From positions 62,001 to 126,000 of the forward strand of contig JABCZR010000009.1 in assembly GCA_013289585.1 (NCBI GenBank): a stretch of DNA of 64,000 bases, given 5' to 3'. The stretch comes from Acidobacteriota bacterium (GTDB lineage: Bacteria; Acidobacteriota; Terriglobia; Acidiferrales; UBA7541). The notes beneath the pieces were generated by a model. That model searched no databases, had not been told where the DNA came from, and worked only from the letters and a program-made list of their open reading frames with translations. Both the position numbers and the translations under genes were made by a program. Positions 9,505 through 29,115 of this stretch are shown here, piece by piece. The number at the start of each line of letters is the position of its first letter. The first letter of the stretch is position 1.

Positions 9505-9926
9505 GCCGGATCTACTGGGATTCAATGCTCTTCGTTTATTGGCTCGAAGACAACCCACAGTTTGCCAAACGTACTGGAGCGGTGCACTCAAAGATGAAAG
9601 AACGTGGGGACGAACTTATCACCAGTGCATTCACTTTTGGCGAAGTGCTCGCTGGTGCGTACCGCGCGGGCGCCCTACGGGCAGCGGACGAGTCGCGTCG
9701 ACTTCTACAGAGAGTGATTTCCGAGGTGGTTCCATTCAACCTCGAAGCCTCGGAGCATTACGCCAGAATCCGGGGAACGCAGGGAGTCGCGCCTGCGGAC
9801 GCCATTCATTTGGCTTGCGCGGTCCAGGCAAAAGTAGATCTGTTTCTGACCAATGATAAGCGCCTTCTTGGCAAGTTTGTTCCAGGAATTCAATTCATCG
9901 CAACATTGGAAACCCAGTTGTTTTGA
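9501..9926 (+). CDS. PIN-domain ribonuclease, VapC-like toxin
   Basis: Likely Mg-dependent RNase toxin. The PIN acidic residues are in place: Asp7 in IYWDSMLFVYWLED, Glu48 in TFGEVLAG, Asp100 in APADAIHLACA and Asp119 in FLTNDKRL. Length (141) is normal for VapC. The gene begins in an ATGA overlap with the unrecognised upstream gene, typical of antitoxin-toxin order. The pair is on the opposite strand to the acyl-CoA genes around it, which suggests a mobile accessory insertion. Its target RNA cannot be predicted. Confidence 0.85.
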   Translation: MSRIYWDSMLFVYWLEDNPQFAKRTGAVHSKMKERGDELITSAFTFGEVLAGAYRAGALRAADESRRLLQRVISEVVPFNLEASEHYARIRGTQGVAPADAIHLACAVQAKVDLFLTNDKRLLGKFVPGIQFIATLETQLF

Positions 9927-25063: not shown

Positions 25064-26425
25064 TCATCTCTCTTCTTTTTTCCTGACTTCTGTGGTGAGG
25101 CGGCCGCGATGGAGCTGGATGGCTACGGTGTCGCCGAGGGCGACTTGGGCGGCGTCACGGAGGAGGTTGCCGGCGGCGTCGGTGGCGATGGCGTAGCCGC
25201 GTTCGAGGACGCGGAGGGGGCTGCGCTCCTGGAGCTGCAAGGATAATTTTTCGAGGCGGTCGCGTTTGCTGCGGAGCTGGCGCTCCATGCGGACGCCGAG
25301 ATCGGCGTTGCGTTTTTCGAGGCGCAGGCGGAAGGCCGAAATCTTCACGCGAAAATCGAACGAGGCGATGCGCAGGTGCGCAGTAGTAAAACGTTGCCGC
25401 GATTGTCGGAGGCGCTCGCGGAGGCCGAGCGCGAGGCGTGAAGTCATTTCATCGGCGCGCTGGCGCTGCTGGCGCAAGAGATCGAGCGGGCGGCGAAAGC
25501 CCCGGCGGGCGGAGAGTTCGTGAACGCGGCGGGACAGTTCCAGCAGGCGATAGCGAAGCAGGCCAGCGAGAGTTTCGCGCAGGTCGGCGATGTGCTTGTC
25601 GAATTCGGCGCGCGTCTGGACGACGAGCTCCGCGGCGGCGGAAGGAGTGGAGGCGCGCAGGTCGGCGACGAAATCGGCGATGGTGAAATCGGTTTCGTGG
25701 CCGATGCCGGAGATGACGGGAATTTCCGAGGCGAAGATGGCGCGCGCGACGATTTCTTCGTTGAAGGCCCACAAATCTTCCATGGAGCCGCCGCCTCGCG
25801 CAAGGATCAGTACGTCCACCATTTTCCTGGCATTGAAAAACTTCAGCGCTTTGACGATTTCCTCGGCGGAGCCTTCGCCCTGGACTCGGACGGGATAGAC
25901 GGTGAGATGCACGTTGTGGAAGCGTCGCGTGAGAATGCGCACGACGTCCCGGACAGCGGCGCCGCGCGGCGAAGTGATGATGCCGATGCGGCTGGGAAGC
26001 AGCGGCAGCGGTTTTTTGCGTGCGGGATCGAAGAGGCCTTCGGCTTCGAGGCGCTTCTTCAATTGCTGGAAAGCAAGCTGGAGCGCGCCAAGACCGATGG
26101 GCTCGAGATTTTCGACGTAGATTTGATATTCGCCGCGGGTTTCGTAAACGCTGATGGAACCGCGCACGCTCATCTGCAGGCCGTCTTCGGGGCGGAACTT
26201 GATGCCGCGCTGTTGCTGCTTGAAGAAAACGCAGCGGACCTGGGCGCGATCGTCTTTCAAGGTGAAATAGATATGGCCGGACTGCGCTTCGCGGCAATTA
26301 GAGATTTCACCCTGGACGGAGACGTCCGTGAAGTTTTTGGCGAGGAGATCGCGGATCTTCCCGGTCAGCTCGCTGACGGTCATGATGCGGCGCTCGGGCA
26401 TGAGGTTGAAAGTCAGCTGGGTCAT
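25064..26425 (-). CDS. xseA: Exodeoxyribonuclease VII large subunit
   Basis: Large subunit of the ATP-independent single-strand DNA exonuclease. The OB-fold N-terminal domain (TVSELTGKIRDLLAKNFTDV, QGEISNCREAQSGHIYFTLK) is followed by the catalytic core GIITSPRGAAVRDVVRIL, LILARGGGSMEDLWAFNEE and ISGIGHETDFTIADFVADL, then a long coiled-coil. The length of 453 is normal. The small subunit gene xseB, often adjacent, is not seen here. The 5' region is unusual: about 300 bases of leader with three direct repeats behind a consensus promoter. Confidence 0.95.
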   Translation of the reverse strand: MTQLTFNLMPERRIMTVSELTGKIRDLLAKNFTDVSVQGEISNCREAQSGHIYFTLKDDRAQVRCVFFKQQQRGIKFRPEDGLQMSVRGSISVYETRGEYQIYVENLEPIGLGALQLAFQQLKKRLEAEGLFDPARKKPLPLLPSRIGIITSPRGAAVRDVVRILTRRFHNVHLTVYPVRVQGEGSAEEIVKALKFFNARKMVDVLILARGGGSMEDLWAFNEEIVARAIFASEIPVISGIGHETDFTIADFVADLRASTPSAAAELVVQTRAEFDKHIADLRETLAGLLRYRLLELSRRVHELSARRGFRRPLDLLRQQRQRADEMTSRLALGLRERLRQSRQRFTTAHLRIASFDFRVKISAFRLRLEKRNADLGVRMERQLRSKRDRLEKLSLQLQERSPLRVLERGYAIATDAAGNLLRDAAQVALGDTVAIQLHRGRLTTEVRKKEER

Positions 26426-26530
26426 TTTTGGCGACCTATAGGATCGACCGGATAGGGAGCGGCTGGAGAATAAACTTTGGCAGAGAATCTTGTTAACAAT
26501 TTACTCCCCTACCCCCCTTTTTTTCGCATC

Positions 26531-26622
26531 TGCGCATTCTAAAGGAGTTTAAGCCCTTTGTTCCTGGAACTGCGCATTCTAAACGAGTTATGGGCGCGTT
26601 TTTCGGAACTGCGCATTCTAAA
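26531..26622 (-). repeat. Three direct repeats of a 13-base motif in the xseA leader
   Basis: TGCGCATTCTAAA occurs at 26531-26543, 26571-26583 and 26610-26622 (plus-strand reading), at 40 and 39-base spacing; two copies share the longer AACTGCGCATTCTAAA. The spacers differ in sequence. This is too short and too few for CRISPR. The 410-base gap 26426-26835 holds only this array, the promoter and no credible gene. The copies could be protein-binding sites, RNA elements in the leader, or part of a dispersed repeat family. Confidence 0.75.
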
Positions 26623-26728
26623 TGGCTTAGTGATTTCTGTGTAGGAAGCGTTGAGCGTCGGGAAGCGAGAAGAAGCACAGGCAAAGAAAAGTCGGCAGGA
26701 CGAGAGTGGTCTGCGAAATTCATAACAC

Positions 26729-26756
26729 ATTATAACAGATAGGTACTATTTGTCAA
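26729..26756 (-). promoter_or_regulatory. Consensus sigma-70 promoter facing xseA
   Basis: On the minus strand a perfect -35 TTGACA (26756-26751) is followed by a 16-base spacer and a perfect -10 TATAAT (26734-26729). Transcription would begin near 26722 and run through the three direct repeats to xseA about 297 bases on. An ATG lies right at the predicted start (26723), in frame for a 76-codon reading that crosses the repeats, but its protein looks non-coding. Confidence 0.8.
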
Positions 26757-26835
26757 GAATAACTAACAAACTGTTTGGGTTCTATCAGCTAGCTGCAAGT
26801 ATCCGTTCCCGCCGGCACACGCAGGGGAGATTTCT

Positions 26836-29115
26836 TCAGAGATTTGGAGCGGCCAAAACGAGATTGAGAGTCTGTGGGCCGCCGGCTTCGAGGAAGGCGG
26901 CGTGGGCCTGGCTGCGGCACGCTTCGGCGTGATGGAGCAGTTCGGCGAAGGCAGGAGAAGAGTGCAGCGGCGAGAACCAAGGATCGCGGGTAAGAGAGGA
27001 GCTGCACAGAAACCCGTCATCAATCACACGGTGAAGAAGGTTGATGGCCTTCTCCACCCGACCGATCCGGGCGAGCTGGCGCCCCACGTAGAATTGGCTC
27101 TCCAGATCCCTTTGCGTGAGCAAGTCTCCGGCTTCAATCGCGTGGAGACATTCCTGAAAGTTGCCTTCGAGATAGGCTCGGAGCGACTGCATGATGGCGC
27201 GAAGGGGACCGGGAATGGCGCCCGTTTTTTCACGGTCGCGGAGTTTTGCCAACGCGGTCCCAGTCTCGCCAAGGCAAGCCAGCGCTGCACAGTCGAGGTA
27301 GAAGCCTGCCTTTGTATCGTAGCAATCGAGAGACTTTTGATACTCGCCAAGGAGGAAGTAAGTGTGCGCCACGCTGGTGATGGCCTGGGGATCGAGATGA
27401 CGGGAACGAAAATGAGCGGCGAGAGAGGCATCCAACTGGTCGCAATAGCGGCAAGCCTGAACGAGGCCGGCGAACAGCTCCGGATCGTTGCGGCGGGAGC
27501 GTGACCGGTGGAGCAACCGCAGCATGGCCTGCTGCGCGTGGCCCTGATCGCATTCGATGAGAGTGTAGAGATTGTGGGCGATGGTGAGGTCCGGATTGAG
27601 AGTGAAAGCCTTGGCGAAGGCTTCGTTGGCCCGCTCGAAGCCGAGATCCACGTTTTCGGCAAATTTGTCCAGGAAGCGAAGAACTCTTCCGAGCCGCGCC
27701 CAGGCCGGCGCGTATTGGGGATCCTCTTCGAGGCAGTGGAGATAGAGACTGCGCGCCAGGTTCATGTTTTCCGGTGTACGGCTGGCGATAAGCTGATTCG
27801 CGCGCAGATAATACTCGTAGGCTTTGGCGCTGGCGGGAACATCGCGGCGAAAACTGCGGCGCTCGCGATCGCTGAGGGGCAGCATAAGGGATTCCACAAT
27901 CCCCTGGGACAATTCGTCCTGGAGGCGGAAGAGATCCTGGAGGGAGGAATTTACCGTTTCCGACCAGAGCACGGTGCCGCTGGGCGCCTCCACCAACTGG
28001 CAAGTGACGCGAATCTGATCACCTGCGCGCAAGAGTGACCCGGTGAGGATGGCGTCGACTCCAGCTTCCGCTGCGATTCGCTTGGGATCGGGAGCGCCGG
28101 AAAAGGCGGCAGCCGAGATGCTCGAGCGCACGATCAGGCTATCAATGCCGGAGAGTGAATTGCTGACCGCGTCGGGAAGGCTGTGGGCAAGAAAATCCGT
28201 GTCCTCGTCCTTCTTGAGCAAACGGAACGGTAGAACGATCAGGCGAGTGACGGTTTGAGGCCGGACGAGAGCGATGGCGCTGGTCGAGATGGTGATGTCA
28301 TTCAGCGCATCGAGCATTTTGTGAGCGGAAGAGTAGCGATGTTCAGCGCGCTTGGCGATGGCCACGCGGAGCGCCTGGTCCAGGGCTTCAATTTCGCGGG
28401 AGCCGGTGAGGGGAGGCGGGTCGTGATGTAACACGGCGTATAGGACATCGACACTCGAAACGCCGTCAAAGGGACGTTTGCCAGAGAGCAATTCGTAAAG
28501 GATGCCTCCGGCCGCAAAAATGTCCGCGGATGGGCCGGCGATCTCCCCACGCGCTTGTTCCGGTGCCATGTAGTGGGGAGTGCCCATGATCATGCCCGAC
28601 GCGGTCAGGAGAGTGGCCGTCTGGAGCGGGTCGCTTTCGCCGGGGCCTTCCTGGAGGGTAGAGCGAGCCAGACCGAAATCGAGGAGTTTGACGCCATGCC
28701 TGGTGAGAAAAACATTGGAGGGTTTCAGGTCGCGGTGGACAATGCCGAGGTCGTGAAGAGCTTGCAGCGCAGCCAGTATTTGCCGCTCGATATTCACCGC
28801 TTCCGGTGTGGGGATGGCGCCGCCGGCGATGCGTTCCGCAAGAGATTGACCGTCGAGAAATTCGAGCACCAGGAAGAGATCGTTTCCGCCTTCCAGGACC
28901 TCAAAAACCTGACAAACTCCCGGATGGCTGACACGCGCGAGGGAGCGCGCTTCGCGCCAGAGGCGGGCGCGAGCGTCCTGATTCTCGAACGACTGGTGCA
29001 ACGTCTTGATAGCCACAGCTCGATGCAGACGTTCATCCCAGCCCTCGTAGACGACACCCATCCCGCCGGCGCCAATCTTGCGTCGAATTTGATATTGGCC
29101 GATCGCTTCTAGCAT
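26836..29115 (-). CDS. Cytoplasmic Ser/Thr protein kinase with TolB/FlgO-like and TPR regions
   Basis: PknB-type kinase of 759 residues. Glycine loop IGAGGMGVVYEG is at ~14-25, catalytic lysine in VAIKTLHQ, VHRDLKPSNVFL near 126, LLDFGLAR near 146 and APEQARGE further on. After the kinase (~270) is a region starting RLIVLPFRLLKKDEDTDFLA and containing GVDAILTGSLLRAGDQIRVT. It resembles the FlgO/TolB N-terminal-like domain found in Acidobacterial kinases and CadC-like regulators. TPRs follow to the C-terminus. No membrane helix is seen between them, unlike the paralogue at 29637. Substrates unknown. Confidence 0.9.
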   Translation of the reverse strand: MLEAIGQYQIRRKIGAGGMGVVYEGWDERLHRAVAIKTLHQSFENQDARARLWREARSLARVSHPGVCQVFEVLEGGNDLFLVLEFLDGQSLAERIAGGAIPTPEAVNIERQILAALQALHDLGIVHRDLKPSNVFLTRHGVKLLDFGLARSTLQEGPGESDPLQTATLLTASGMIMGTPHYMAPEQARGEIAGPSADIFAAGGILYELLSGKRPFDGVSSVDVLYAVLHHDPPPLTGSREIEALDQALRVAIAKRAEHRYSSAHKMLDALNDITISTSAIALVRPQTVTRLIVLPFRLLKKDEDTDFLAHSLPDAVSNSLSGIDSLIVRSSISAAAFSGAPDPKRIAAEAGVDAILTGSLLRAGDQIRVTCQLVEAPSGTVLWSETVNSSLQDLFRLQDELSQGIVESLMLPLSDRERRSFRRDVPASAKAYEYYLRANQLIASRTPENMNLARSLYLHCLEEDPQYAPAWARLGRVLRFLDKFAENVDLGFERANEAFAKAFTLNPDLTIAHNLYTLIECDQGHAQQAMLRLLHRSRSRRNDPELFAGLVQACRYCDQLDASLAAHFRSRHLDPQAITSVAHTYFLLGEYQKSLDCYDTKAGFYLDCAALACLGETGTALAKLRDREKTGAIPGPLRAIMQSLRAYLEGNFQECLHAIEAGDLLTQRDLESQFYVGRQLARIGRVEKAINLLHRVIDDGFLCSSSLTRDPWFSPLHSSPAFAELLHHAEACRSQAHAAFLEAGGPQTLNLVLAAPNL

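Follow-up and report, generated by a model that had tools for sequence, protein, structure and literature searches.

The repeat array upstream of xseA in an acidobacterial genome is probably one copy of a dispersed, promoter-carrying family

What kind of element lies between a consensus promoter and xseA in this acidobacterial DNA, an operator array belonging to that gene or something more widely distributed? In the window, by which we mean the whole stretch of 64,000 nucleotides analysed here, TGCGCATTCTAAA is present in three exact copies on the plus strand, with start-to-start steps of 40 and 39. A perfect TTGACA-16-TATAAT promoter (12 matches out of 12, with TG before the -10) faces these boxes from the minus strand, and the next minus-strand gene is xseA. 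The original prediction of an xseA leader with a consensus promoter and three 13-base repeats was therefore correct in its description. The scan of positions 26000-27400 gave three promoter-like sites, compared to 0.4 in shuffled sequences. Matches to TGCGCATTCTAAA with up to three mismatches occur in the window at chance level (21, against a shuffle mean of 20.0); the exact copies are not a product of chance, since the whole genome contains 14 of them and the reversed-pattern control none. Behind the promoter, a protein kinase gene (Pfam Pkinase) runs from 29115 to 26836, also on the minus strand. The layout is as follows.

25064-26425, minus strand: xseA, exonuclease VII large subunit, downstream of the element (Pfam Exonuc_VII_L, E=1.7e-107)
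26489-26505, minus strand: GTAAATTGTTAACAAG-like stretch beyond the G-run (by eye)
26506-26530, plus strand: C-run, T-run and CGCATC (A-run and G-run on the transcribed strand), bordering box 1
26531-26543, plus strand: box 1, TGCGCATTCTAAA, adjoining the C/T tract (exact match)
26571-26583, plus strand: box 2, TGCGCATTCTAAA, in longer form AACTGCGCATTCTAAACGAGTTA (exact match)
26610-26622, plus strand: box 3, TGCGCATTCTAAA, promoter-proximal (exact match)
26623-26689, minus strand: filler from promoter to array
26690-26722, minus strand: TGAATTTC stretch (by eye) with the presumed transcript start near 26722
26729-26734, minus strand: -10 hexamer TATAAT, preceded by TG, with a 16-nt spacer at 26735-26750
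26751-26756, minus strand: -35 hexamer TTGACA (promoter scan)

It had been suggested that, with steps of 39-40 bp, bound proteins could sit on nearly one face of the helix. This did not hold: at 10.5 bp per turn one step makes ∼3.76 turns, and the 79 bp from box 1 to box 3 make ∼7.5 turns, so that box 3 lies about half a turn out, on the opposite side of the DNA. Equal helical phasing on one face was rejected on this arithmetic, and also on the commonest layout in the family described below, +,-,+ with centres 32 and 37 bp apart.

The 14 exact 13-mers fall at eight places of the 4.73 Mb genome, and a 20-mer searched at up to two mismatches has 40 sites, with none in the control. When aligned, most of these places have in common a C-run and a T-run immediately ahead of the first box, as well as additional boxes at constant distances. 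The CCCCTACCCCCC-TTTTTTT that borders the window array (26506-26524) recurs beside other family copies, most of which adjoin a C/T tract. A covariance model of the three-box element, built from 12 copies, found 41 copies at E≤1e-5 in the same genome. Further copies of the repeat, whose search had been proposed as a check, were thus found, and the idea that the pattern is special to xseA had to be given up, the array appearing as one copy of a dispersed family. The set of own elements used below (n=48) comprises these 41 and seven weaker model matches, namely the window copy, the two other copies of the direct type, and four doubtful ones with E values of 0.05-0.36. Of the 71 model matches, the other 23 were excluded. 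Most of them fall on elements already represented, either on the opposite strand or overlapping another match; a few at the bottom of the list, with E>0.4, were not individually inspected.

Boxes are arranged +,-,+ in 42 of 106 copies, with centres 32 and mostly 37 bp apart. Another 41 contain two plus boxes only; their spacing, in most cases 69 bp, is consistent with a middle box that fell under the cut-off. The remaining 23 have fewer boxes or other arrangements. All boxes of the window copy are direct, and it is an outlier of the three-box model (E=0.0104); it belongs to a rarer all-direct type together with the copies at C5:153.5 kb and C17:87.8 kb. By eye, the GTAAATTGTTAACAAG-like stretch has a similar counterpart at the C17 copy and a weaker one at C5, and is also seen upstream of xseA in two other genomes (G014 and G026). 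It is a possible outer edge of the direct-repeat subtype, as read in very few copies. Beside several class II copies, ∼60-150 nt beyond the C-run (e.g. in L096, L097 and L099), the alignment showed another, related module, consisting of a C-run, a T-run, GTAAGGATGTGATTCGATTGAGGTT and a box-like part repeating after ∼41 nt, so that the superfamily probably extends beyond what the model detects.

Frames predicted by codon score, with the first possible start, leave 41 of the 48 own box regions clear; one is overlapped, and six touch a frame by 2-33 nt. For the wider distribution (the own genome is G000, and the other G labels are other genomes), a pattern search over 61 genomes found the family in 26, every one of them from the genus; the 25 genomes outside the genus had none. 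With the model, 25 of 36 genus genomes were positive (own included), with up to 45 copies per genome. In a class-wide sample, to which stricter filters were applied, nine of 151 genomes were positive: eight belong to the genus, and the ninth, a weak case, to the same family. Box-bearing contigs that carry a name amount to eight stretches, all from Acidobacteria gp2 or Candidatus Acidoferrales metagenome-assembled genomes. The repeat family is nearly restricted to one acidobacterial genus (subgroup 2, Acidoferrales, judged by the named relatives), and it shows what characterises interspersed repeats, i.e. many dispersed copies, intergenic position and a narrow taxonomic range. No description of it was found in the literature searched (open-licence papers, mostly at listing level). 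Direct arrays with other spacing were seen in L226 and L227 (G012 C131 and C107), with steps of 72, 72, 39 and 72, 40 respectively.

Is the promoter a property of the xseA locus or of the repeat? In the region 150-350 nt beyond the element start, a promoter with at most two mismatches faces the boxes in 19 of the 48 own elements. Controls gave 2/48 for the opposite strand, 0/48 for the side with the C-run, 1/48 and 2/48 for a more distant region, and 3/480 for shuffles. Elements of other species were fetched from G014 (29 of 40), G023 (17 of 31) and, in small numbers, six more genomes; 24 of these 58 had the promoter facing the boxes, with controls of 1/58 and 1/58. Pooling both sets yields 43 of 106, versus 3 of 106 on the opposite strand. 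The 28-nt promoter, spacer included, has 12 genome sites at up to three mismatches (the window one included; control 0) and is present in 8 of 36 genus genomes. Nine of the 12 sites lie within 350 nt of a model match; of the three others, one precedes an 80-residue frame, one has no array directly behind it, and one was not read. No promoter with two mismatches or fewer was seen in 29 of the 48 own elements. A sigma70-type promoter is part of the repeat unit, frequent though not universal. Two observations concern what follows it. Behind the promoter copy at 9804, the array is replaced by the 80-residue open frame (MSIPIYPELESRIRAQAEAQGLTIETYLERLLRAD..., L268:1696-1938, G000 C2), which we presume to be antitoxin-like. 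In several copies (L073, L079, L089; by eye) the promoter is closely followed by a hairpin, GCGGCGGC-loop-GCCGCCGC, with T residues behind it, which resembles an early terminator or attenuator.

The next gene beyond the G-run is oriented with the transcript in 23 of 46 elements and against it in the other 23, none being found in two. With no preferred orientation of neighbours, the elements are not the leaders of one gene class; this possibility was discarded, and the array upstream of xseA loses any distinction on this count as well.

Copies were then compared across species by their flanks, at sites where the model found both copies. All 40 pairs at matching sites agreed in orientation, as did all of the 25 pairs, at 19 sites, that stayed when a duplicated-gene group (15 pairs) was left out. 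Both flanks match in 10 of the 40 pairs, and 30 rest on one flank. Of the elements fetched from G014 and G023, 14 of 29 and 5 of 17, respectively, have a counterpart among the own copies, in each genome one of them only through the duplicated-gene group. In 20 matching-site pairs, identity was ∼0.7 for the box region, ∼0.44 for the filler and ∼0.45 for the last 40 nt before the C-run; in 40 random cross-species pairs, which were not screened against the matching-site pairs, the same three parts gave 0.66, 0.43 and 0.385. This control removes part of the argument from site conservation. Across these comparisons the boxes resemble one another throughout, and the filler does not. In the model alignment, matching-site copies scored 0.709 (n=23) compared to 0.671 for others (n=2608), and the matching-site copy was the best match in 4 of 19 cases. 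Descent of each copy is not proven by sequence, with best matches in 4 of 19 only and filler as different as in random pairs. Position and orientation speak for old copies kept in place, while sequence neither proves nor excludes it.

The xseA locus itself was read in relatives. The gene is present in 35 of 36 genus genomes, and 30 loci were read. A promoter with at most two mismatches lies upstream in 8 of the 30, own included (7 of 29 congeners): it is perfect in G000, G014, G028, G008, G027 and G003, with one mismatch in G033 and two in G023. The best promoter in the other 22 has at least three mismatches. Box-like repeats follow the promoter, by eye, at all eight loci, so that the conservation expected upstream of xseA was found in part of the genus. 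The TGAATTTC stretch comes right after the promoter in G000, G023 and G028, and TGAGTTTC, with one change, in G027. The box type behind differs by eye: direct GCGCATTCTAAA in G000, a +,-,+ TGTTGC type in G023, GCCACACATCC repeats in G014, and GATGTG and GATATTC-like ones in G027 and G028. The model recognises 6 of the 30 loci at E≤0.01; the tally of box cores and G-runs at these loci was made by regular expression, without a chance control. At several loci, e.g. G031, G006 and G019, no array was found on reading. For E. coli, the available part of PMC5684230 describes PxseA as a promoter directly upstream of xseA with a MarA site; this is a single marbox, whereas the window has a box array, and no relation is suggested.

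Taken together, we favour the reading in which the window feature (∼26489-26760) is a direct-repeat-subtype copy of a dispersed, non-coding, modular, promoter-carrying and BOX-like repeat family, and regard it as probable. For the family, dispersal, near restriction to a genus, the frequent promoter in the unit and the retained orientation at matching sites are established, while mobility is deduced from dispersal. On the transcribed strand, a full unit would run from a sigma70-type promoter through ∼100-150 nt of filler to up to three or more boxes of 20-24 bp, and end in an A-run and a G-run. The promoter would fire and the array be transcribed, and at xseA the unit would serve as promoter and ∼300-nt leader. 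The xseA feature is thus likelier to be a promoter-bearing interspersed repeat, usable as promoter and leader, than a phased operator array. Correia/NEMIS-type MITEs are also dispersed and non-coding, and some bear promoters; in contrast to these, no terminal inverted repeats or target duplication were identified in the family.

The nearest known kind seems to be the BOX elements of S. pneumoniae, the likeness being one of behaviour. BOX is described in the available part of PMC3049150 as a modular interspersed repeat, limited to a species group and present in many copies, as here; one genome was found to have 125 BOX out of 422 modules. Certain large copies contain open reading frames, expression has been shown for some, and transposition now occurs at a low rate (same part of PMC3049150). 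BOX has terminal inverted repeats and target duplications (PMC3049150, same part), whereas in the aligned copies of the family, inspected by eye, no shared inverted termini were seen. A built-in sigma70 promoter beside the box array, frequent here, is not mentioned for BOX in that part of PMC3049150. By analogy, the family may have spread in the past, move rarely now, be transcribed and possibly change the expression of neighbouring genes. If it does carry its own promoter and keep its orientation where sites correspond between several species, these chromosomes would have in it a source of promoters and leaders that has gone unrecognised, and both gene annotation and the reading of RNA-seq data would be biased by it. 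The named relatives are all metagenome-assembled Acidobacteria, and little is therefore known of their gene control.

Alternatively, the copies may be multi-copy small RNA genes acting in trans, each giving an RNA of 200-250 nt whose boxes bind an RNA partner or a protein, xseA being a mere neighbour. The enrichment of the promoter on one strand only, relative to the array, argues for a transcript, and the even orientation of neighbours (23 plus, 23 minus) also suits such genes. When 14 +,-,+ arrays were tested for folding, nine gave z values below -2 (the lowest -6.92), which is what inverted boxes should give. The window transcript with its direct array, however, folds no better than shuffles (z +0.39), and covariation stays within the range of shuffles: over 99 aligned copies, 18 double-change cells were counted versus 14.2 (87 of 500 shuffles as high), and 92.3% of cells were paired versus 91.9% (40 of 500 as high), in one alignment fitted to the model. 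The suggestion that the repeats form an RNA element gains nothing from these two results. Also against small RNA genes, the filler is no more alike at matching sites than in unrelated copies, and no Rfam family was found at the elements at the gathering threshold (window and 20 loci). A lenient Rfam scan of eight loci gave two sub-threshold microRNA matches on inverted boxes (L051, L045), which were taken as chance. We consider this explanation unlikely, yet worth weighing. A small protein read through the boxes was also examined, in the one class with alignable filler. Of 23 rows, six were dropped (one failed extraction, three gapped, two duplicate loci). Differences by codon position in the 17 remaining copies were nearly equal (0.314, 0.348 and 0.355), and the region was judged, weakly, not to be coding. 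One frame is open in 15 of the 17 and a second in 13, with synonymous shares of 0.34, 0.32 and 0.23; that the frame open in 15 has the highest share is a weak sign of coding.

The boxes might instead, as originally suggested, be duplex DNA sites for one sequence-specific protein, be it a nucleoid, recombination or regulatory protein, with the promoter incidental or autoregulated. The same box occurs in either orientation (+++ and +-+), something compatible with a DNA-binding protein but not with an RNA motif, and this argues for a duplex DNA site; the box region is moreover ∼0.7 alike, versus ∼0.45 in the neighbouring parts. Centre spacings of 32, 37, 39 and 69 bp nevertheless give no common helical face, and the box word differs by eye between species at the xseA site. 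This we hold to be unlikely too, and slightly more so.

More doubtful still is a genus-specific system with about 40 units or more in each genome, many of them promoter-driven, in which the box word would be exchangeable. As part of this reading, several species would have retained the promoter and first transcribed bases at xseA, whereas the boxes behind them would have been replaced together by another type. This would suggest co-evolution with a recogniser acting in trans, perhaps the zinc-finger-like protein (FTFSDGRRC...) described next. A change of box type behind a kept xseA promoter is in any case a concrete and testable puzzle. The gene of a FTFSDGRRCRTPR...HFCFDHAQKE protein precedes four own copies (C11, C19, C1:485 and C27) and copies in G008, G014 and G023 (loci L085, L083, L075, L074, L224, L211 and L194). 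Its frame ends ∼18 nt inside the model match in four of the seven (C19, C1:485, G008, G023) and within 46 nt of the edge of the match in C11 and G014; in C27 a short frame stops 205 nt ahead of it. The own genome has four close copies of the gene, all with an array, and a fifth that is 32% identical; in all four close copies (FTFSDGRRC...) the array is at or close behind the 3′ end. The protein, a small one, shows, by eye, the pattern C-x9-C-x11-C-x2-H (e.g. L085:712-1515, G000 C19), and had nothing above cut-off in Pfam or NCBIfam, zf-primase at 0.0019 being below it.

It is very improbable that the elements form a REP/BIME family and are moved by a REP-associated tyrosine transposase. REP/BIME are, like the family here, short intergenic repeats, often clustered, and RAYT-type tyrosine transposases are reported from Acidobacteria (available parts of PMC3733652 and PMC6006769). 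Two Y1 transposase genes are present in the genome, and an element copy lies 1.3 kb from one of these; in G014 C19 a Y1_Tnp frame (L194:1123-1692; Pfam E=6.8e-8) starts ∼120 nt beyond an array, on one side. Both own Y1 genes, however, have palindromes of a different kind as their flanks, whose feet look GTAG-like by eye (L115 ∼1281-1320 and ∼2047-2090; L116 ∼1410-1435 and ∼1990-2100), and the boxes of this family do not flank them as the repeat of a REP/RAYT system would. The model finds no element in 3.2 kb around one of these genes, and near the other only the copy 1.3 kb away. The GTAG foot of REP/BIME is absent from the boxes by eye, and the direct type has neither hairpin nor palindromic unit. 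The foot, the palindrome and the link to the genome's own Y1 genes all speak against REP/BIME, and mobilisation by a RAYT was judged unlikely.

Finally, a regulatory array evolved for xseA alone, although promoter and arrays lie upstream of that gene in several species, is hardly tenable, an exclusive role being refuted by dozens of dispersed copies elsewhere without a common orientation of neighbours.

Two neighbourhoods of other copies may be recorded. A family copy lies just past the end of the window, at G000 C9:126481-126601 (window coordinate ∼64481), with a matching-site copy in G014 (L196). Near another, a fluoride riboswitch (Rfam RF01734, 53.7 bits) was detected at L048:2797-2869 on the minus strand (G000 C2).
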